From Candidatus Gastranaerophilales bacterium (GTDB taxonomy: Bacteria; Cyanobacteriota; Vampirovibrionia; Gastranaerophilales; Gastranaerophilaceae), in contig CALVEO010000006.1 of the NCBI GenBank assembly GCA_944326615.1, positions 1 to 61,393 on the forward strand: a DNA stretch of 61,393 nt, in the 5' to 3' direction. A model generated the notes under the pieces. That model made no database searches and had not been told where the DNA came from. It saw only the letters and a list, made by a program, of their open reading frames with translations. How positions within the stretch are numbered: the first letter of the stretch is position 1; every line of letters starts with the position of its first letter. Below are positions 121 through 51,110 of this stretch, piece by piece. The position numbers and the translations under genes were made by a program.

Positions 121-203
121 AAGAAGGTAGACTTTGGCAATTAGAAGATAAGCCTTTTACCGTAAATAGCCTACCTTATTATCTTCCTACCTTCTTACCC
201 TCT
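121..203. repeat. Palindromic element family A, intergenic copy
   Basis: An approximately 83-bp imperfect palindrome built from AGAAGGTAG / CTACCTTCTT arms around a core with TTTTACCGTAAATAGCC. The same core and arms recur at 50279-50363, and the arms recur in frame inside the radical SAM gene at 13653-13721 and 14832-14916. This copy lies downstream of the (p)ppGpp synthetase gene and interrupts no visible gene. Confidence 0.65.
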
Positions 204-10738: not shown

Positions 10739-11029
10739 TTAATTTAGCTTATTTCTATTGATAAAAAACTTTATGGCTTCTTCTGTTGTTTTAGGAGTTC
10801 TAAGAACTTCGTCTTTAATAAAATTAGAACTATTTCTTTTCATAAAAAATTTTTTATAAAGCTTCAAGCCAAAAAATATTATAATTGCAGATAAAATTAC
10901 CCCGCACATTGCAAAAGCAAATTTTACAAAGGCATTTTGCATAACAGCAGAGCGGGTTTGTTCGCACAAGCCCGCATTTGCTGTTAAAAATAAAAGTGTA
11001 AAAACTGTATTAAAAACTTTATTCTTCAA
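10739..11029 (-). CDS. Small exported or membrane protein, 96 aa, TTG start
   Basis: Function unknown. I place the start at a TTG at 11029 because an AGAGG Shine-Dalgarno lies 6 nt upstream and the resulting N-terminus, MKNKVFNTVFTLLFLTANAGLC, is a good signal peptide. An ATG further upstream would put a basic charged segment inside the RNase E/G gene. A second hydrophobic helix (FAFAMCGVILSAIIIFFGL) lies at about 37-55, followed by a basic tail. The start overlaps the last codons of RNase E/G by 11 nt, which implies translational coupling. Confidence 0.72.
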   Translation of the reverse strand: MKNKVFNTVFTLLFLTANAGLCEQTRSAVMQNAFVKFAFAMCGVILSAIIIFFGLKLYKKFFMKRNSSNFIKDEVLRTPKTTEEAIKFFINRNKLN

Positions 11030-12776
11030 CTGATGCCTCTGTTGTTTCTTTAGTTTTTTTAGAACGTGTTTTTCTTGTTTTAGAAGTTCCACGATTTGGT
11101 CTTCTCGTTTTTTTAGGTTTTTCTTCCTCGGTTTGCGGAACTTCTTCTATTACAGGAATCTGTGCTGTTTCTGGCGCCTGTTCTTGAACTTCGGCTTCTA
11201 ACACAGGTTTAATTTCTTCGTTCGGTTTTAGAACTGTTTCTGCTGTTTCAATTGTTGGTTCTATTATTTCCTGCTGTTCCTGTTTTTTCTCAAACTTATT
11301 TTTTCTGCCTCCGCGTTTTCTTTTATTATCGCGTTTTTCAGTTTCCTGAGCAGCAACGGCCGACGGATTTTCAACATCAATTTCTGGTATTGTCTGCTGT
11401 TGAATTTCAGGCTGTTCTATAACGGAAGTTTCCTGTTGAGGCTGATTATTTTTATTTTTATTCTTTTTAAAGTTATTTACGGGCAGTTTCATTTTAGCTG
11501 CTTTAGCTCTGTATTCACCTTCTGCTGTCGGGGTTGCAAAGTTAAACTCATTCATAAAGTAGCCTGTTCCCTGACAGTGAGGGCATTTTCTCGTAAATAT
11601 TTCGGATAGAGACTGTCCCTGTCTGTGTCTTGTGAGTTCTACAAGACCTAAATCGGAAATTTGTCCGACCTGCGGTTTTGCTTTATCAGGTTCAAGCGCT
11701 ATTTCAAGTTCTTCAAGCATCGCAAGTTTGTCTGCTCTCGACATCATATCAATGAAGTCAACGATTATCATACCGCCGATATTTCTTAATCTAAGCTGGC
11801 GTGCAATTTCATGGACTGCTTCGATGTTTGTTTTCAGAATTGTTTCATCCTGAGTGGATGAGCTTGTAAATTTACCGCTGTTAACATCAATTACAGTCAA
11901 AGCTTCTGTTTGCTGAATAAACAGGTAACCGCCTGAGGGCATATTTACTTTTACATTCAGAGCAGCTTTAATTTCTTTATGAATATCTTCTGCAACAAGA
12001 AGCGGCTCTGTTCCTTTATATAAAGTTACCTGAACATTTTTATTCATATGCCAGTTTTGCAGGATATTTTGAACTCTTTGCATTGCAAAAGCAGTATCAA
12101 CAACAATTTCTTTTACATCTTCTGTACAGGCTTCTCTTATTGTTCTATATAGAAGATCCTGATCTCTGTAAAGAAGATTTGGCGGGGTCATTGTTTCAGC
12201 AGCAGTTATAATATTGTTCCATTTTTCAAGAAGAATTTCTAAATCCTCCTGAATATCAGCTTCAGATTGCCCTTCTGCTTCTGTTCGGATAATAACTCCG
12301 ACACCAACCGGCTTAATAAGGCTTACAACCGATTTTAATCTCGCTCTTTCTTTTGAGTTTTCAATTTTTTTACTTATGCTTATTCCCGGTTCGTTGGGCA
12401 TCAATACGAGAAATCGTCCGGGCAGGCTGATTTCTGTTGTAACTCTCGGACCTTTGTGCCCTGTAGGTTCTTTCACTACCTGAACTATGAGTTTTTGTTT
12501 CGGGGAAAGTTTATCTTTTAAGGCGCCTTTTCCCATAACATCCTGAGCGTGTAAAAATCCCATTTTGTCTGTTCCGACATTTACAAATGCCGCATCAATA
12601 CTCGGTAGAATGTTATCAACCGTTGCGAGATATACATCACCTAAAATTACTTCTCCTCTTGAAATAAAAAAGTCGCTGACTTTACCGTTTTCCATTACTG
12701 CGGCAATGTTGTCGCGTTCTGCAATGATAATCCGTTTTTCAACATTTCCGTTTTTGTTGTGTTTGTCATTTGCCAT
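11019..12776 (-). CDS. rng: Ribonuclease E/G family endoribonuclease
   Basis: The 585-aa protein is an RNase E/G family enzyme that cuts single-stranded RNA in mRNA decay and rRNA maturation. It starts with an S1-like domain (about 35-110; GDVYLATVDNILPSIDAAFVNVG) and has the catalytic metal site with DVNSGKF and IIVDFIDM around 295-345. The zinc-link region is RKCPHCQGTGYF near 405. The last 150 residues are Gln/Glu/Lys-rich and low in complexity, resembling the disordered scaffolding tail of RNase E or of cyanobacterial RNase E. It lies 15 nt behind the radical SAM gene, an association common in related bacteria. Confidence 0.92.
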   Translation of the reverse strand: MANDKHNKNGNVEKRIIIAERDNIAAVMENGKVSDFFISRGEVILGDVYLATVDNILPSIDAAFVNVGTDKMGFLHAQDVMGKGALKDKLSPKQKLIVQVVKEPTGHKGPRVTTEISLPGRFLVLMPNEPGISISKKIENSKERARLKSVVSLIKPVGVGVIIRTEAEGQSEADIQEDLEILLEKWNNIITAAETMTPPNLLYRDQDLLYRTIREACTEDVKEIVVDTAFAMQRVQNILQNWHMNKNVQVTLYKGTEPLLVAEDIHKEIKAALNVKVNMPSGGYLFIQQTEALTVIDVNSGKFTSSSTQDETILKTNIEAVHEIARQLRLRNIGGMIIVDFIDMMSRADKLAMLEELEIALEPDKAKPQVGQISDLGLVELTRHRQGQSLSEIFTRKCPHCQGTGYFMNEFNFATPTAEGEYRAKAAKMKLPVNNFKKNKNKNNQPQQETSVIEQPEIQQQTIPEIDVENPSAVAAQETEKRDNKRKRGGRKNKFEKKQEQQEIIEPTIETAETVLKPNEEIKPVLEAEVQEQAPETAQIPVIEEVPQTEEEKPKKTRRPNRGTSKTRKTRSKKTKETTEASVEE

Positions 12777-12791
12777 AAATAAAATCCTTTA

Positions 12792-15497
12792 CTATAATTC
12801 TTTTAAATCTTTGTCAAAAAAGCGTGTACGCTTTATATCAAAGGTTACATCCGGTGCAATTAAATTCATCAGAACATCTGCTCTCAATGCGGGAATTCCT
12901 TCTTCTGCAGTCCCGTCTTTTCTGTTAATTGCGGATTGACCGCTTTTAAGCACTATGAACAGACTTTCATCTTCAAATCGGTATGATTTAATTGATTTTT
13001 TTATATCTGTTTTTTTGATTAAACCTTTTTTGTTTTTCTTCTCTACAAAAATTTCTTGAGAAGATAAAACTCTGTCTGTATTATATCTTAAAGTTTCAAA
13101 ATCGTAAAGTGATTTATTAAAAATATCAATTTTATATTCTGCCCATTGTGCCGTAATATCAATTGCCGGAGCATTTTTTTCTATTTTAACAATACTTATA
13201 ATTTCTGATTGTTCCGGCAGAACTTTTTCCAACTTTAGTTTGAGTTCCTCTGGTGTAAGATTGTCAAAAAGTTCAATATCAACAAGTTCGCATTCGCTTT
13301 CGGCAAACAGTGGCAGAGCAATACCCATAGATACTTTCATTGAAGGGTTGTAGCCAAGTGAATACACTACATTCAAATCGGTTCTTGAAAGTGCTTTAAA
13401 AAATGTATTCTGCCAGTCAAGATGGGAAAAATATTTTAAAATTCCTGTTTTTGTAAGCTTAATTCTGTACTTATAAATTTCTCTGTCGTATCCCTGGCAT
13501 GTCTGGGGATTTTTTATTTCTATTTTTAATTCCTGTGCTTTTTCGCTTGCTTTAAAAGGTTTAGCAAGAATTTTATGTATTTTTAAATTTTTGCACACTC
13601 CGCAATTGACGCAGGCAGTTTCGCATGTCGGAACAGTGGATGATAATATAGCAGAAGGACAGGAGGGTAGGCAGTTTTCTGATAATTGCCTAACTTCATA
13701 CCCTCCTATCTTCTTATCTTCTAATATTGCGCTATTATATTCATTAACAAGCCATGTTTTGTCCAGCCCGACATCTATAAAGTCCCATGGAAGACTTTCT
13801 TCTGTTGAATATTGTTTTTGCGCCAGTTCTGCAAGGTTAATTCCTAGTTCTTCTGCTGTTATATGCCAGATATCTTTGTTAAAATATTCTCCCCACGCAT
13901 CTAAATAACATCCTTTTTTATAAAGTGCTTCAATATATTTACAGAGACTTTTATCTCCGCGGGTTAATACAGCTTCAATTTGAGATACTGTATCTTCGTG
14001 GTAGTTAATTTTCAGACCTTTTAAGTGTTTTGTTTTTTCTTTTAAATAGTGTATATGTTCATCTACTTTTTCAAGGCTCATCTGACCATGCCACTGAAAT
14101 GGCGTAAAAGGTTTAGGCACAAAAATCGACAGAGTACATGTTATATCAAGTCCATGGTTTAACCCTTTTTCACGTTTAATTTGCTTACAGCGGTATTTAA
14201 TTTTGCTTAATAGCTCCGCCATTTCATCCATATCTTCAAGTGTTTCTGTAGGAAGCCCGCAGATAAAATAGAATTTTACTTTAGACCATCCGTTTTCATA
14301 TAAAGTTAAAACGGCATTTAGAATTTGTTCTTCGGTAATATTTTTCTTTATAACATTTCTGAGTCTTTGGCTTCCAGCTTCGGGTGCAAGTGTCATTGTG
14401 GATTTTCTAATACTTTGTACAAGATTTGCAAGTTCAAGGTTAAAACCGTCAATGCGTTGGCTCGGTAAAGATACAGACACTTTTTTCTCGTTAAAATCAA
14501 CGGCTAATTCTTTTATTACTTCATTAATATTTTTGTAATCGTTTGAAGATAGAGATAGGAGCGAATATTCATCATAACCTGTATTTTTTACAAGTTCTTT
14601 TGTAATTTTTATGATATCTTCAGCAGGTCTTTCTCTTACAGGCAGTGTAACATGCCCGGGCTGACAGAAACGGCACATTCTTCCGCAGCCGCGTCTGATT
14701 TCAACAACAGCCCTGTCCTGCACAGAGGATGAAAAAGGTATCGGATATGATTTTAATGCCGTATCATAAGTTAATTGTGCAATGCGTTTTGTAACAGTTC
14801 CGCCGGTTAACGCTGACCAGCGGCCTGTTGTGGAAGGTAAGAAGATAGGAAGTTCAGAAGGTAAGCCTTTAACTGATAATTGCTTATCTTCATACCCTCC
14901 TATCCTCCTATCTTCTGTATCATATCCGCATAATGCTTTAATTCTCTGGGCTCTCGGCATACCTTTTGTTTTTTCTAAAATTTGACAAACTTCTATAATG
15001 CTGTCTTCGCCGTCTCCTATCATAAATACATCTATAAAATCCGCAACAGGTAATGGATTAAACGCACAGGGCCCGCCTGCAATTATAATCGGGTCATCAT
15101 CGCTTCTCATATCATTGCGGTAAGGAATTCCGGCCATTTCAAGCATTTTTAAAACGGTTGGATAGGCCATTTCATATTGAAGCGAAAATCCGACAGCATC
15201 AAAATCTTTTATATTGCGCTTACTTTCAAGGGCATATAAAATATCAGGCTGGAAATCTTTTTCCGGTGCGTAAACCCTGTCTGCCATGTAATTTGGCTGT
15301 TTGTTTACTAAATCGTATAAAATTCTTAATCCTAGATTGCTTATACCGATTTCGTATTTGTCAGGGAACGCAAAGGCAAATTTGACTTTAGCTGTATCAA
15401 AATCTTTATTGTAAGACAAAAATTCTCCGCCAACATACTGGTATGGCTTGGTGCATTTATATAAAGCTTCGTGATTATCTCTAAAAAAACAGTTCAA
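12792..15497 (-). CDS. Radical SAM protein fused to DUF2344 (TIGR03960/TIGR03936 type)
   Basis: The 901-aa protein joins a B12-binding-like N-terminal region, a radical SAM core with RRGCGRMCRFCQ (CxxxCxxC near residue 270) and a C-terminal DUF2344 domain from about 655. Both family parts are often next to RNase E/G, as here; the reaction is unknown. Two insertions are striking: residues about 194-222 and 593-615 are encoded by copies of palindromic element family A. Their peptides are alike (EDRRIGGYEDKQLS and EDKKIGGYEVRQLS, both followed by LPS). Both fall at expected domain borders, so the enzyme may still fold. A GGGAGGG Shine-Dalgarno supports the start. Confidence 0.9.
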   Translation of the reverse strand: MNCFFRDNHEALYKCTKPYQYVGGEFLSYNKDFDTAKVKFAFAFPDKYEIGISNLGLRILYDLVNKQPNYMADRVYAPEKDFQPDILYALESKRNIKDFDAVGFSLQYEMAYPTVLKMLEMAGIPYRNDMRSDDDPIIIAGGPCAFNPLPVADFIDVFMIGDGEDSIIEVCQILEKTKGMPRAQRIKALCGYDTEDRRIGGYEDKQLSVKGLPSELPIFLPSTTGRWSALTGGTVTKRIAQLTYDTALKSYPIPFSSSVQDRAVVEIRRGCGRMCRFCQPGHVTLPVRERPAEDIIKITKELVKNTGYDEYSLLSLSSNDYKNINEVIKELAVDFNEKKVSVSLPSQRIDGFNLELANLVQSIRKSTMTLAPEAGSQRLRNVIKKNITEEQILNAVLTLYENGWSKVKFYFICGLPTETLEDMDEMAELLSKIKYRCKQIKREKGLNHGLDITCTLSIFVPKPFTPFQWHGQMSLEKVDEHIHYLKEKTKHLKGLKINYHEDTVSQIEAVLTRGDKSLCKYIEALYKKGCYLDAWGEYFNKDIWHITAEELGINLAELAQKQYSTEESLPWDFIDVGLDKTWLVNEYNSAILEDKKIGGYEVRQLSENCLPSCPSAILSSTVPTCETACVNCGVCKNLKIHKILAKPFKASEKAQELKIEIKNPQTCQGYDREIYKYRIKLTKTGILKYFSHLDWQNTFFKALSRTDLNVVYSLGYNPSMKVSMGIALPLFAESECELVDIELFDNLTPEELKLKLEKVLPEQSEIISIVKIEKNAPAIDITAQWAEYKIDIFNKSLYDFETLRYNTDRVLSSQEIFVEKKNKKGLIKKTDIKKSIKSYRFEDESLFIVLKSGQSAINRKDGTAEEGIPALRADVLMNLIAPDVTFDIKRTRFFDKDLKEL
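13653..13721. repeat. Palindromic element family A, in-frame copy 1 in radical SAM gene
   Basis: The element reads GGAGGGTA, AGGCA, a loop with TCTGATAATTGCC, then TACCCTCCTATCTTC. Nested inverted arms GGAGGGTA/TACCCTCC and AGGCA/TGCCT are visible. On the coding strand it adds about 23-30 codons between the radical SAM and DUF2344 parts without a stop. Confidence 0.75.
14832..14916. repeat. Palindromic element family A, in-frame copy 2 in radical SAM gene
   Basis: This copy has arms GAAGATAGGA/TCCTATCTTC (10 bp, perfect) and GAAGGTAAGC/GCTTATCTTC around a loop with TAACTGATAATT. It encodes about 28 residues in frame just before the radical SAM core. The coding-strand DNA matches copy 1 over GATAGGAGGGTATGAAG and GCAATTATCAG. 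Confidence 0.75.
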
Positions 15498-27230: not shown

Positions 27231-27367
27231 CACTTTTAGCTGACAGATGGCGTGAAACCCGGAAGGCCAGATGTCAGGATGTCAAGCTGTTATCAGTGCT
27301 GCGCACTAAAATAACATCTGTAATCAGCCTGCCTTCCTGTCCTCCGAACCTCTGTTCTTCTGATAGC

Positions 27368-27452: not shown

Positions 27453-28263
27453 AATCCACTTCACGTTTCACTCTTCACTAAAAAAACAAGCCGCGTTTAC
27501 TCTGGCAGAAGGTGCTACGCACGTAGTCCACTTTGACGACATTCGTCGCGCTGCGTTCACTCTGGCTGAGGTGTTGATTACATTAGGAATTATCGGTGTT
27601 GTTGCAGCACTTACTATACCAACTTTAATTAATAAATATCGTGAGAAACAGACTGTAACTGCGGTAAAAACAGCATATTCTATATTTTCACAAGCATATA
27701 TGTCTGTGGCAAATGAATATTATTCTCTTGATAGCCTTGTTGATTCATCAAAATCTGATAAGGAAAATGCTCAAGCAATGTTTAATGCATTGTCAAAATA
27801 TATTAAAAAGGTTAAAAGCTGTGATACAGAAAGTAATTGCATGGGAGATGCATATAAAACTCTTGATGGTAGAATATTATCACGTTCTTGGGATGATTAT
27901 GCAAATGTTGAAACAGGGATTCTTGCTAACGGTATGAGTTTTTGGGTATTAAGCACAAAAGGAGCGTATGATGGTTATTCGGGACAAATTGGTGTAGATA
28001 TAAATGGTTCAAAACGTCCAAATCAGTTAGGGGTGGATTGTTTTCATTTCGCTGTGTTCAAAAACGGAGTAGTTGTGGCAAGCGGCGCTGATAATCCTAA
28101 ATATAATGAGTATTTAGATACGGCGGGTGTGCCTAGAAGATTTGGCAGATGCAGCATTAATTCTGATGCAAATGAATATAATGGATATGCTTGTACTTCA
28201 TGGATTATTGAACATGAAAATATGGAATATCTTGATCGCGATATTTCACGTGAATAATAATTC

Positions 28264-31080: not shown

Positions 31081-31890
31081 TTAAAAGAAAAATGCTATAG
31101 CAAAAATCATATCCCATATTACAATTGCAACAAAAGACCAGACAACCGCTTTTGTTGTAGCTTCTCCTACTCCTTTTGCTCCGCCATTTGCATAATATCC
31201 GCATGAACAGCTTATAAGAGCTATTGTAGCTCCGAAAAATACGGATTTTAAAAGACAAACGCCTAAATCTTTTAAATATATTCCAAGCCAGGCAGAATCA
31301 AAAAAGGCCATAAAACCAAGTCCTGCGGTTAACTTAGCTGTAATTGCTCCCGCAATAACTCCGACAGCGGATGCAATAATAACTACAGGGGGCATCATAA
31401 AAATTCCGGCAAGCACGCGAGGCACGAAAAGATATTTTATAGGATTAACTTTTAAAACTTCTATGGCATCAATTTGTTCTGTGACACGCATGGTGGCTAT
31501 TTCAGATGCAATAGAAGAACCAATCATTGAAATTATAGCAAAGCCTGACATTATAACACCGACTTCTCTGACAATAAGTATTGTCATTAAAAGTCCTACA
31601 AAATTTCCGCCGCCTTGCTTAACCATTTCCAAAGCAACCTGAGATGCGACGATAATTGATGTCATGCCTACAATTGAAAGAGTTATAGGCAGTGATGTAA
31701 TACCAAATCTATAGCACTGTTCTATTACTTCTTTCAACTCAATTTCGCCTTTAAAAATAAATTTTGCTGTATCAATTCCATTGAGAGTTATTTTACCTAA
31801 TGTGTCAAGGAAGCTCTCAAGTTCAGAAAAAATTCCTGTAAAAATTTTATAAGTTGCTGATTGTCTATAGTATTTTTGTAAACTACCCAT
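31081..31890 (-). CDS. mlaE: MlaE-type lipid ABC transporter permease
   Basis: The 269-aa inner-membrane permease belongs to the MlaE/YrbE family. It has five or six helices, with GMTSIIVASQVALEMVKQGGGNFVG and the conserved EIATMRVTEQIDAIEVLKVNPIKYLFVPR core, and the family motif for substrate entry. The real start is ATG 31890 (MGSLQKYY). An upstream TTG lies inside the promoter TTGCAC-17-TATAAT, whose -10 ends 6 nt before the ATG, so the mRNA should be leaderless. It partners the ATPase encoded next to it. Confidence 0.92.
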   Translation of the reverse strand: MGSLQKYYRQSATYKIFTGIFSELESFLDTLGKITLNGIDTAKFIFKGEIELKEVIEQCYRFGITSLPITLSIVGMTSIIVASQVALEMVKQGGGNFVGLLMTILIVREVGVIMSGFAIISMIGSSIASEIATMRVTEQIDAIEVLKVNPIKYLFVPRVLAGIFMMPPVVIIASAVGVIAGAITAKLTAGLGFMAFFDSAWLGIYLKDLGVCLLKSVFFGATIALISCSCGYYANGGAKGVGEATTKAVVWSFVAIVIWDMIFAIAFFF

Positions 31891-31896
31891 TTCTGA

Positions 31897-31925
31897 ATTA
31901 TACAAAAAATTTTGTATTTGTGCAA
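31897..31925 (-). promoter_or_regulatory. Promoter of the Mla operon, leaderless
   Basis: On the minus strand TTGCAC, 17 nt and TATAAT end 6 nt before ATG 31890. The start codon thus lies at the expected transcription start. Confidence 0.6.
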
Positions 31926-31928
31926 TTT

Positions 31929-33056
31929 ATGTTGCAAAAACATAAAATTGCGCATTTATTGCGCAATCTTGGATTTGTCCTAAAAAGATCGCGCAACAAG
32001 TGCGCGATGACAGTTCTTAATATTCAATCCCTCGTCTTTTTTGGAGATGGTGTCATTATATGGCAGGTTTTTATTCGGATGCTAGGATACTATGGCGCTA
32101 AGGCAGTAGGAAGTATTGTAAAAAAATTATGCAAAACTCAGGTGGCGGGTGCAGCGGCTACGCTGCACCAAAGGAAAGAAGGAATTGATTTGCTAATCCC
32201 CTCCCTCGAGGGGAGGGGAAGTGAAGGGGTGGGTGAAAATCAGCCCTTACCTCAACCCTCTCGTTTAGGAAAGGGCGCGAAACCGACTTATTCACAGAAT
32301 ATGATAAGCACCCTCACCCTCTCCCGCAAGAGGAGAGGCCAATCCACTTCACGCTTCACTCTTCACACTTCACTAAAAAAACAAGTCGCGTTTACTCTTG
32401 CAGAGGTTTTGATTACCTTAGGAATTATAGGTGTTGTGGCTGCGCTCACTATGCCTTCATTAATAGCAAATCATACAAAATCTGTTGTCGAGGCACGTTT
32501 AGAGAAGTTTTATTCCTCAATGAATCAGGCAATTCGTATGGCAGAACTTGATTACGGACCTAGAGAAACCTGGTTTGAGGATAATACAGATTTAGCATTG
32601 AAAGAAGCTTGGATTAAAAAATATATTATCCCGTATATGAATGTTGTGAAAACTGATACTATTCGTGTTGGAGGAGCTGATTTCTTTACTATTTATTTTT
32701 CAGACGGGAGTGCCGTATCCATAGTTAATTCAAATGGCAGAGACTGGCATTTTTTTCCTGGCGATCCTGAACGATGTGTATCATCTTCCCCTTCCCGTCA
32801 CTATAAAGATTATATAGGGCGCTGTGCTTTTGCTTTTTATTACAATCCAGTTCCCAAATCTACTGGTGATGGTTTTGTACAGTGGAATTTTGAGCCTTAT
32901 ATGGCAAGTTGGGATGGTAAAGAAAATTCGTTAAAAAATCATTCAACATTCGGCTGTAATGAAAATTCAAGCTGGCCTGCATTTTGTACCCGCTGGATTC
33001 AGTATAACGGCTGGAAGATTCCTAAAGATTATCCATTCAGGGTTAAATATAGATAG
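31929..33056 (+). CDS. Pseudopilin with repeat-derived N-terminal extension (375 aa)
   Basis: The pilin part starts about residue 154 with AFTLAEVLITLGIIGVVAAL, then has a mature domain ending NGWKIPKDYPFRVKYR. It has a Cys cluster typical of this set (CNENSSWPAFC). The 153 codons before it come from a 197-nt module (31947-32143) shared with the pilin leader at 49.9 kb and from CCCTCTC palindromes, all in frame. No poly-G start is present here; the first ATG (31929) has no Shine-Dalgarno, and no promoter is obvious, so expression is uncertain. Its stop codon is directly followed by the ruvB stop on the other strand. Confidence 0.7.
   Translation: MLQKHKIAHLLRNLGFVLKRSRNKCAMTVLNIQSLVFFGDGVIIWQVFIRMLGYYGAKAVGSIVKKLCKTQVAGAAATLHQRKEGIDLLIPSLEGRGSEGVGENQPLPQPSRLGKGAKPTYSQNMISTLTLSRKRRGQSTSRFTLHTSLKKQVAFTLAEVLITLGIIGVVAALTMPSLIANHTKSVVEARLEKFYSSMNQAIRMAELDYGPRETWFEDNTDLALKEAWIKKYIIPYMNVVKTDTIRVGGADFFTIYFSDGSAVSIVNSNGRDWHFFPGDPERCVSSSPSRHYKDYIGRCAFAFYYNPVPKSTGDGFVQWNFEPYMASWDGKENSLKNHSTFGCNENSSWPAFCTRWIQYNGWKIPKDYPFRVKYR
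31947..32143 (+). repeat. 197-nt pilin-leader module, copy 1
   Basis: This stretch matches 49887-50083 at equal length with about ten differences by eye. It starts with an ATTGCGC/GCGCAAT hairpin, includes a GATCGCGC-AACAAGT-GCGCGATG hairpin (31987-32010), and ends GCAAAACTCAGGT. Both copies are read in the same frame into a pilin (product includes GVIIWQVFIRMLGYYGAKAVG). Confidence 0.85.
32203..32340. repeat. Palindromes in pseudopilin leader (32 kb)
   Basis: CCCCTCCCTCGAGGGGAGGGG and CTCTCCCGCAAGAGGAGAGG type hairpins are inserted between the shared module and the pilin body without breaking the frame. The pair recalls blocks at 27.4 kb and 50.2 kb. Confidence 0.55.
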
Positions 33057-41348: not shown

Positions 41349-42229
41349 ATGAAAATTTTATTATTTTCAAAAAGTCGGGGGGGGGGCGCTTAGCCGCTTT
41401 TAGTAGTGCTTTCACTCTTGCTGAAGGTGCTGCGCAAATCTGTCACTTTGACAATATCTGCCGAGCCGCGTTTACGTTGGCAGAAGTTTTAATAACATTA
41501 GGCATTATCGGCGTAGTCGCAGCCATGACTATGCCTGTTTTAGTTGCAAACTATCAAAAAATGGTGTTAAAAAATCAGTTTAAAAAGGCTTATTCTACAG
41601 TTTATCAAGGAATAAGGCTTGTAGAAGCCAATATGGGTTATAAACCTGAGTGTTACGGCTGGGATACGTCGCCTTATGCAAGCGGATTGCTTTATTGTAC
41701 AAATTATGATGATGCCGGTAATTGCACAAACTGGGGAAATAATGAAGGCAAGCCGGTTCCGTCTGACTATAACGGCAGAATGGGTGAATGTACAGAGTTT
41801 TGGAAACAGTTTGAAAAATCCGTTAAAATTTTAAAAATTTGTGAAAATAAAGCTTACCCGGAGTGTATTCCTGAATATAACGGAATTGATTCTATTAAAA
41901 AAGCTCAAGATGACAGTTTATCTGACGAAGATTTAAATAAAGAAACTACAGGCAGTAGCTGGTGGCGCAAAAGTGCTATTCTTAATGACAGAAAAGCTTA
42001 CGTACTGGCTGATGGGACAATAATGCTCTTTAAGGGCAGCTGGCCAGGAAATATTGGATTTGCTATAGATGTAAACGGTAAAAAAAGGCCTAATAAATGG
42101 GGATATGATATTTTTGATTTCAGCATTGTTTCAACAGATTCAAGTGCATTGAAGCTTAAAGGAGGCTCATTAATGATTGAAGAAGGCGGAACATCTGCAG
42201 CTTCTATGATAAAGAATATGGGACAGTAA
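41349..42229 (+). CDS. Poly-G pseudopilin gene 2, frame currently closed (needs one more G)
   Basis: The ATG has a strong RBS and its own promoter. The leader MKILLFSKS enters ten G (41377-41386), then meets TAG at 41391. With eleven G it reads SRGGGRLAAFSSAFTLAEGA and continues in frame through a second AFTLAEV at 41468 into the pilin body ending at 42229 (293 aa). The mature protein has Cys-rich regions (CYGWDTSPYASGLLYC) and the segment GFAIDVNGKKRPNKWGYDIFDFS, also seen in the copy at 27 kb (GVDINGSKRPNQLGVDCFHF). The frame is intact except for the tract, which suggests phase variation, slippage or a sequencing miscount. Confidence 0.85.
41377..41386 (+). repeat. G10 tract in pseudopilin leader 2
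   Basis: Ten G lie 28 nt after the ATG and encode the Gly run. One extra G joins the leader to the pilin frame. Confidence 0.9.
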
Positions 42230-49782: not shown

Positions 49783-51110
49783 ATGAAAAGATTGAGAAGG
49801 AATGAAACTCCCGAAACTTCGGGGGGGGGGCACTTCTAGCTAACGGAAGGCAAGATGTCAGGAAGGCAGTCGTTTACAGTAATGTCATTGCGCATTTATT
49901 GTGCAATCTGGAATTTGTCCTAAAAAGATCGCGCAACAAGTGCGCGCTGACAGTTCTTAATATTCAATCCCCCGCCTTTTTGGGATATGGTGTCATTATA
50001 TGGCAGGTTTTTATTCGGATGCTAGGATACTATGGCGCTAAGGCAGTAGGAAGTATTGTAAAAAAATTATGCAAAACTCAGGTAACGGATGGAACGGCTA
50101 CGTCCTCTCTCAATAACCTGCAAAGTTCATGCAACACTCAATGTGTCGGGTGGAGCGGCACGCTCCCCCTCTCTCTTTGTGATAGGGAGCAGTTGTGCGA
50201 ACGAAGTGAGCTTACAAATGCGGGAGAGGGTTTGATTAGAGGACCGGAAGCCCGGAAGGCAAGAGGTCAAGCTTATTTAGAAGTTAGGAAGGTAAGAAGG
50301 TCTGAGGGTAGGCTATTTACGGTAAAAAGCTTATCCTCCTATCCTCCTACCCTCATATCTTCTGATAACCCTCTCCCTCAATCCCTCCCCCAGTGGAGGG
50401 AAGCAGAAAAACGCGCTTCACTCCTCACTCTTCACACTTCACTAAAAAAACAAGCCGCGTTCACTCTGGCAGAGGTTTTGATTACCTTAGGAATTATCGG
50501 GGTTGTGGCTGCTATGACTATGCCTGTTTTAATTCAAAATCAACAGAAAATAACAACAGAAAGCAAAGTGAAGAAGTTTTACTCTGTAATTAATCAAGCT
50601 GTAAAAATGTCTGAAGCTGAAAACGGCTCTTATGAGTTTTGGGATTACCCGGAAAAAGATAATACTGAAGATACAAAAGCATTTTTTAACAAATATTTTG
50701 CTAAATACATGAATATTTTGAAAATAACCGACAGAAGCACACCTATTAATGATAGTAACGGAAATCCAACAGAACTGTCAGCGAACACTATTGTTATTTA
50801 TTTATCTGATGGTTCAGGTTTTACAATGAGATCATCAGATGGTATTGATATACTTTTTTACCCGTCAGCATCTAAAATAGGTAATTACAAGAAACGTTCC
50901 AGAGAGGTTTTTATGTTTAACTTTAATAAACAATATGCATCAGAAACAAAGGGATTTGTTGAACCGTTTACATACAAATGGGATGGAACAAAAGAAGATT
51001 TAATTAACAATACACAGTATGGATGCAATAAGACTTCTTCGAATTACGCTTACTGCACTAAATTACTACAGCTTAATAATTGGAAAATTACCAAAGACTA
51101 CCCATGGTAA
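49783..51110 (+). CDS. Poly-G pseudopilin gene 3 with ~225-codon leader, frame currently closed
   Basis: The ATG, with AAGGAG, begins MKRLRRNETPETS and enters ten G (49821-49830), then stops at TAG 49837. With eleven G the frame is open to 51110, giving about 442 aa: a leader of about 225 codons built from the 197-nt module, CCCTCTC palindromes and an element-A copy, then AAFTLAEVLITLGIIGVVAAM and a mature domain ending NWKITKDYPW. That no stop occurs over this long repeat-rich leader suggests it is translated. Without the tract only an internal TTG (49899) could start the pilin frame. Cleavage would be at QAA-FTLAE. Confidence 0.85.
49821..49830 (+). repeat. G10 tract in pseudopilin leader 3
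   Basis: Ten G between ACTTC and CACTTCTAG; the flanks match those of the tract at 27221 closely (ACTTC and CACTTTTAG). One extra G opens the pilin frame. Confidence 0.9.
49887..50083 (+). repeat. 197-nt pilin-leader module, copy 2
   Basis: Second copy of the module at 31947-32143, the same length with about ten substitutions and no indel. It is read in the same frame. It includes the AACAAGT hairpin at 49927-49950. Confidence 0.85.
50123..50275. repeat. Repeat block in pseudopilin leader 3
   Basis: This block holds the sequence repeated inverted at 1-107 (AAGTTCATGCAA, GCGGCACGCTCCCCCTCTC, GGGAGCAG) and a GGAAGCCCGGAAGGCAAG repeat also seen near 27258 and, inverted, near 210-240. Confidence 0.6.
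50279..50363. repeat. Palindromic element family A, copy in pseudopilin leader 3
   Basis: AGGAAGGTAAGAAGG and CCTCCTACCCTCATATCTTC arms surround TTTACGGTAAAAAGC. On the plus strand it encodes a peptide (SEGRLFTVKSLSSYPP) like the antisense reading of the copy at 14832 (SEGKPLTDNCLSSYPP), so the element is open in more than one frame. A CCCTCCCC palindrome follows to about 50400. Confidence 0.7.

Follow-up and report, generated by a model that had tools for sequence, protein, structure and literature searches.

The radical SAM gene and its two palindromes

The window, i.e., the whole stretch of 61,393 nucleotides that was analysed, is contig C6 of a metagenome-assembled Gastranaerophilales genome of 1.96 Mb. 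On its minus strand, positions 12792-15497 encode a protein of 901 amino acyl residues (TTG start as listed) in which a TIGR03960 B12-binding-type radical SAM protein is fused to TIGR03936/DUF2344. The downstream neighbour (11019-12776) is presumably an RNase E/G, judged by its sequence and general knowledge. Two palindromic elements of about 84 bp lie in frame inside the radical SAM gene, both on the minus strand. Copy 1 (14833-14916, site 1) encodes residues ~195-222, possesses arms with a period of 8 and folds into a hairpin of -37.5 kcal/mol (z -6.7), and copy 2 (13639-13722, site 2) encodes residues ~593-619 and forms a partly decayed hairpin (z -3.4). None of 200 shuffles folds as well as either copy, cmsearch scores are 88.2 bits for copy 1 and 70.0 bits for copy 2, and the two copies are 74% identical over 87 nt. 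These results agree with an earlier note on this DNA, which had proposed that two palindromes of the same family are inserted in frame in one radical SAM gene. The look-alike peptides it had placed at residues ~194-222 and 593-615 are also seen, and read EDRRIGGYEDKQLSVKGLPSELPIFLP and EDKKIGGYEVRQLSENCLPSCPSAILS.

The suggestion that both insertions sit at domain borders holds as well. Radical_SAM_N2 ends at residue 190 and the radical SAM domain starts at ~235, with site 1 in between, and site 2 falls between the end of the radical SAM family model (residue 593) and the start of DUF2344 (residue 676). In the AlphaFold model, long stretches of pLDDT<50 occur only at residues 194-222 and 598-619. 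The two inserts fill the two inter-domain linkers of the enzyme. The structure model of the protein also has TruA/PUS pseudouridine synthases as PDB matches. This match probably runs through the DUF2344 part (residues ~676-893) and hints at an RNA-modifying role for the protein.

Empty sites in relatives

When 32 congeners were searched, the protein matches in most of them were interrupted precisely at residues ~192-222 and ~590-619. The alignment with relatives, the check that had been proposed for this locus, shows a clean absence of both segments from more than 20 congeners (all genomes compared are metagenome assemblies). The peptides are absent from homologs free of the palindrome; their retention there was the outcome named beforehand as speaking against an insertion. 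The empty site 1 of relatives reads ALCEGENSGRWSA, with the short form C-EGEN-S-GRW, and in most congeners the empty site 2 is KEYNDSNTKPTCE or a sequence of comparable shortness. Short sites recur in the majority of an additional set of 80 relatives, which overlaps in part with these congeners. Compared with the shortest empty forms, the net insertion at both sites amounts to 87 nt when the arms are of type A and to 90 nt when they are of type B. The flanks of filled versus empty sites give no clean repeat that would represent a target-site duplication.

A dispersed repeat family

The family consensus consists of four degenerate 8-mers (RGAAGRTA), GC, a loop like TTTACNGTAAA and then the inverted arm. 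In the window, the period-8 arm motif matches 19 times versus 0.29 expected. When the genome was searched for further copies, as the earlier note had advised, the covariance model R1 gave 139 strand-wise matches at E<=0.01, corresponding to about 75 places, of which a few low scorers may be chance, and these were then sorted. A dispersed family of palindromic, hairpin-forming repeats therefore exists in this genome, as is the case for the Rickettsia and Wolbachia palindromic elements (RPE/WPE). Matches to the element occur in 22 of the 56 genomes searched, and all 22 belong to one Gastranaerophilales genus. In IMG/VR, consulted with viral carriage in mind, only four contigs match a long arm motif.

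Within the window, a third good copy is located at 50280-50363 (plus strand), in an open frame that enters a prepilin-like domain whose FTLAEV motif has its F at 50460, and a fourth copy (123-203, minus strand) is intergenic, with a right half that deviates from the consensus. A weaker member with type B arms (RGAAGNCA units; 27254-27361, listed without strand) lies upstream of another prepilin-like gene. When peptides of type B were sought in other genes of the same genome, one weak match was obtained. A REP family distinct from the element studied here is also present in this genome (G000), where the RAYT-type gene L086 (G000:C19:154-516) is flanked by and contains GTAGGTTGGGG...CCCCAAC palindromes.

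Open frame and copies in other genes

Among the 35 copies scoring at least 60 bits, only one frame per strand is ever open (8 and 12 copies), with a single exception, and both open frames yield the same style of peptide. All inserts in the radical SAM gene and all copies in candidate prepilin leaders, from this genome and from others, use the frame f1/r0. In-gene copies employ a common open frame, as they do in RPE/WPE.

The expectation that the family is intergenic outside the radical SAM gene does not hold entirely. About ten copies, the one at 50280-50363 and about nine others genome-wide, sit in frame upstream of prepilin-like domains (FTLAEV...GIIG), in open frames that run into these domains and are candidate leaders. 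Copies in long ORFs beyond the radical SAM gene and the prepilin-like leaders were not seen in this genome, so that frame-tolerant insertions into enzymes are rare in it. In another genome, a peptide-binding-protein-like gene ends in one copy (L330; G003:C88:18941-19018), which codes for its final residues. Insertion into many unrelated genes, a trait of RPE, is therefore not observed, the copies in genes being confined to the radical SAM enzyme, the prepilin-like leaders and one 3' end of a gene.

The prepilin-like genes of the window display further features. In two of them (49783-51109 and 41349-41480), ten consecutive G come after the ATG and put the prepilin domain out of frame with it, both at 49.8 kb, where the gene holds the 50280 copy, and at 41.3 kb, where it holds none. 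Eight or 11 G would restore the frame between ATG and FTLAEV in both genes, a pattern suggestive of slippage-mediated phase variation. Open frames of 183-218 codons (49806-50460 and 31842-32391), made up nearly entirely of mixed repeats, enter prepilin-like domains without a stop. A duplicated prepilin N-terminus (AAFTLAEGATHVVHFDDIRRAAFTLAEV) is encoded at 27496-27556 and at 41411-41471, the former having no usual start codon in frame.

Constraint and hairpin decay

Calculated as ratios of values pooled over pairs, pN/pS is about 0.96 for the insert at site 1 versus 0.14 for the rest of the gene, and 0.65 for the insert at site 2 versus 0.11 for the rest. The hairpin is significant only at site 1 of G000 and G008; it is weak at site 1 of G009 and site 2 of G000, and no other insert has a significant one. 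Because pLDDT is below 50, pN/pS is relaxed and the hairpin is lost in most species, the inserts thus seem to behave as near-neutral loops with a decaying palindrome.

Distribution and recombination

Both sites are filled in seven species (G000, G030, G018, G008, G024, G022, and G009) and site 1 only in G017 and G014. On a gene tree built without the inserts, the insert-bearing species represent four separate lineages. At residues 570-629, which include the empty site 2, G014 is 95-97% identical to G007/G016, and over most of the remaining gene its closest sequences are those of its own clade, for the most part G024 or G022. Similarly, G017 is locally nearest to G031 at residues 570-629. Since the nearest relatives differ locally, G014 and G017 have, as judged by sequence similarity, demonstrably regained the empty version of site 2 via recombination over short tracts.

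For the filled alleles, comparison of G000 with G008, and of G030 with G014 and with G024, gives a dS of 0.06-0.2 for the insert versus about 1.0-1.1 for the gene. Bases outside the element are common to insert-bearing species across clades (GYDT on the left in most of them, AC-GRW on the right in type B) and occur in no empty allele. Copies elsewhere in the genome could have lowered the dS of the inserts through gene conversion; on comparing the sequences, we favour short-tract transfer of filled alleles, i.e., their horizontal spread between species, over such conversion or reinsertion at a hot spot.

Unrelated repeats in the same linkers

In L253 and L256, the two sites are both occupied by an unrelated palindrome (GCCCCTTGCGGGAGAGGG...), and each of these genomes contains about 40 scored matches to this family. 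A third palindrome family, with 29 matches in its genome, occupies site 1 in G053 and has a second match within the same gene, and yet other families reside in the radical SAM gene of G051 and L243. The two linkers account for 14% of the protein and hold 9 of the 11 family-by-site events, as counted by hand and with some judgement involved (binomial p about 1e-6). Outside this gene, an orthologous intergenic gap at MFP-AcrB-like genes (L165-L192) holds a hairpin in several species, with arms of species-specific 8- or 9-mers.

Discussion

It is very probable that a selfish palindromic repeat has spread in this genus, is tolerated in linkers, and has had its alleles shuffled by short-tract recombination. 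A small non-autonomous repeat, MITE- or REP-like, would have spread among genomes throughout this Gastranaerophilales genus. Degenerate 8-mers make up its arms, and with a net insertion of 87 nt (type A) or 90 nt (type B) the frame of the host gene would be kept. As one frame per strand is free of stops, only insertions in that frame would leave a working gene. Copies inside domains would be purged, and those in floppy linkers would survive as a disordered loop of ~29 residues, whose peptide might then drift almost neutrally for the enzyme as the hairpin decays. Filled and empty versions of each site would finally be shuffled among species by short-tract homologous recombination. Of the features expected for a MITE, inverted repeats are present; neither a target-site duplication nor a parent transposase was found for the element.

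That the same family inserted independently in several species, with the same two codons acting as hot spots, seems rather unlikely to us. It could explain why inserts are closer between species than the surrounding gene and why the flanks past the insert are not unusually similar, and unrelated families do occupy these linkers in other lineages; however, it does not predict the GYDT and AC-GRW bases common across clades, nor the exchange of the empty site 2 by recombination. Alternatively, the segments might be native functional linkers, lost on several occasions, with only a secondary resemblance to a repeat. The scattered distribution of insert-bearing species on the gene tree would be compatible with such losses, as would the length of the site 2 linker, which varies even without elements. 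However, outgroups and nearly all relatives have the same short site 1 (EGENS-GRW), and the inserts match a repeat of ~75 copies, have pN/pS near 1 at site 1 and are predicted to be disordered. As the outgroups share the same empty site, this explanation is largely refuted and we consider it extremely improbable.

Two further explanations concern the palindrome itself. A hairpin maintained for regulation at the mRNA level, such as RNase processing given the RNase E/G-like gene just downstream, would agree with the strong site 1 folds of G000 and G008 (z -5.7 and -6.7), but most other insert-bearing species show no significant hairpin at either site and more than 20 congeners possess none. We reject a maintained mRNA hairpin on the basis of these fold tests in relatives, and judge it highly unlikely. 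Hardly more probable is a RAYT-driven REP element (REPtron cargo). The genome does encode one Y1 transposase (C19:154-516), but this gene is flanked by a different repeat (GTAGGTTGGGGTTTCTACCCCAAC), no element occurs near any RAYT locus checked, and the element-rich genomes G018, G009, G003, G024, and G017 give no Y1_Tnp match. The element is not a tagged short palindrome flanking a Y1 gene, as a RAYT-mobilised REP would be, and the link is rejected.

Returning to the spread of a selfish repeat, a broader possibility, which we put forward tentatively and consider doubtful, is that certain enzyme linkers throughout an order of gut bacteria are recurrent landing pads, where unrelated palindromes settle in frame and then, by very short recombination or conversion with other copies, pass from one species to another and exchange type A arms for type B arms. 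If true, a conserved gene would become an exchange ground for frame-safe selfish DNA, i.e., DNA with a net length that is a multiple of 3 and one open frame per strand. Unrelated families in the same linkers mark where a protein tolerates added sequence, and the occurrence of filled as well as empty alleles among many close species makes it directly testable whether such elements are neutral passengers or a source of new protein sequence.

Comparison with known systems

A literature search found no paper on repeats in Gastranaerophilales. RPE/WPE are stem-loop repeats of about 100-150 bp that are intergenic and also fused in frame in conserved genes, have a usable open frame and are apparently tolerated (PMC2229807, PMC10969869, PMC4224334). 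The Gastranaerophilales element resembles them as a stem-loop with intergenic and in-frame genic copies, a usable open frame and a position in linkers, including in-frame presence in a conserved gene of which other homologs cleanly lack it. It differs in phylum, sequence and arm design (period-8, 84-90 nt) and in affecting far fewer enzyme genes. The parallel with Rickettsia palindromic elements that the earlier note had drawn thus holds in kind, that is in form, location, frame and linker position, and implies no common descent. As the element is not found in many unrelated genes, we file it as working like RPE, not as RPE.

Other systems share some of these traits. Intragenic GTAG/CGTC REPs are known from O. 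terrae uvrA and from RPE-4/6 of R. conorii, in frame and sometimes two per gene (uvrA), and different REPs occur at about the same recB site in two Xanthomonas species (PMC3733652). In-frame palindromes, two in one gene, and different repeats at one site are encountered here as well; in contrast, the Gastranaerophilales consensus contains no GTAG or CGTC tag, is longer and has no linked RAYT. ERIC/RU-1, YPAL/RU-2, RU-3, and the 107-bp Correia elements of Neisseria are small MITE-like repeats with an open frame fused to genes (PMC2229807), but their sequences are unrelated, and neither TA ends nor a target duplication are established for the Gastranaerophilales element. Mitochondria of Nematomorpha harbor coding palindromes, i.e., inverted repeats inside translated genes (PMC6649704), whose arms encode conserved, kept residues, whereas the arms described here are added, drifting sequence. 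Our verdict is that the element is a Rickettsia-palindromic-element-like, protein-coding selfish palindrome, of a known kind and of a new family and lineage, which extends protein-coding palindromes to a gut lineage beyond Rickettsiales and Proteobacteria. What is added to known work are the filled and empty alleles, their recombination, and the unrelated families at the same sites.
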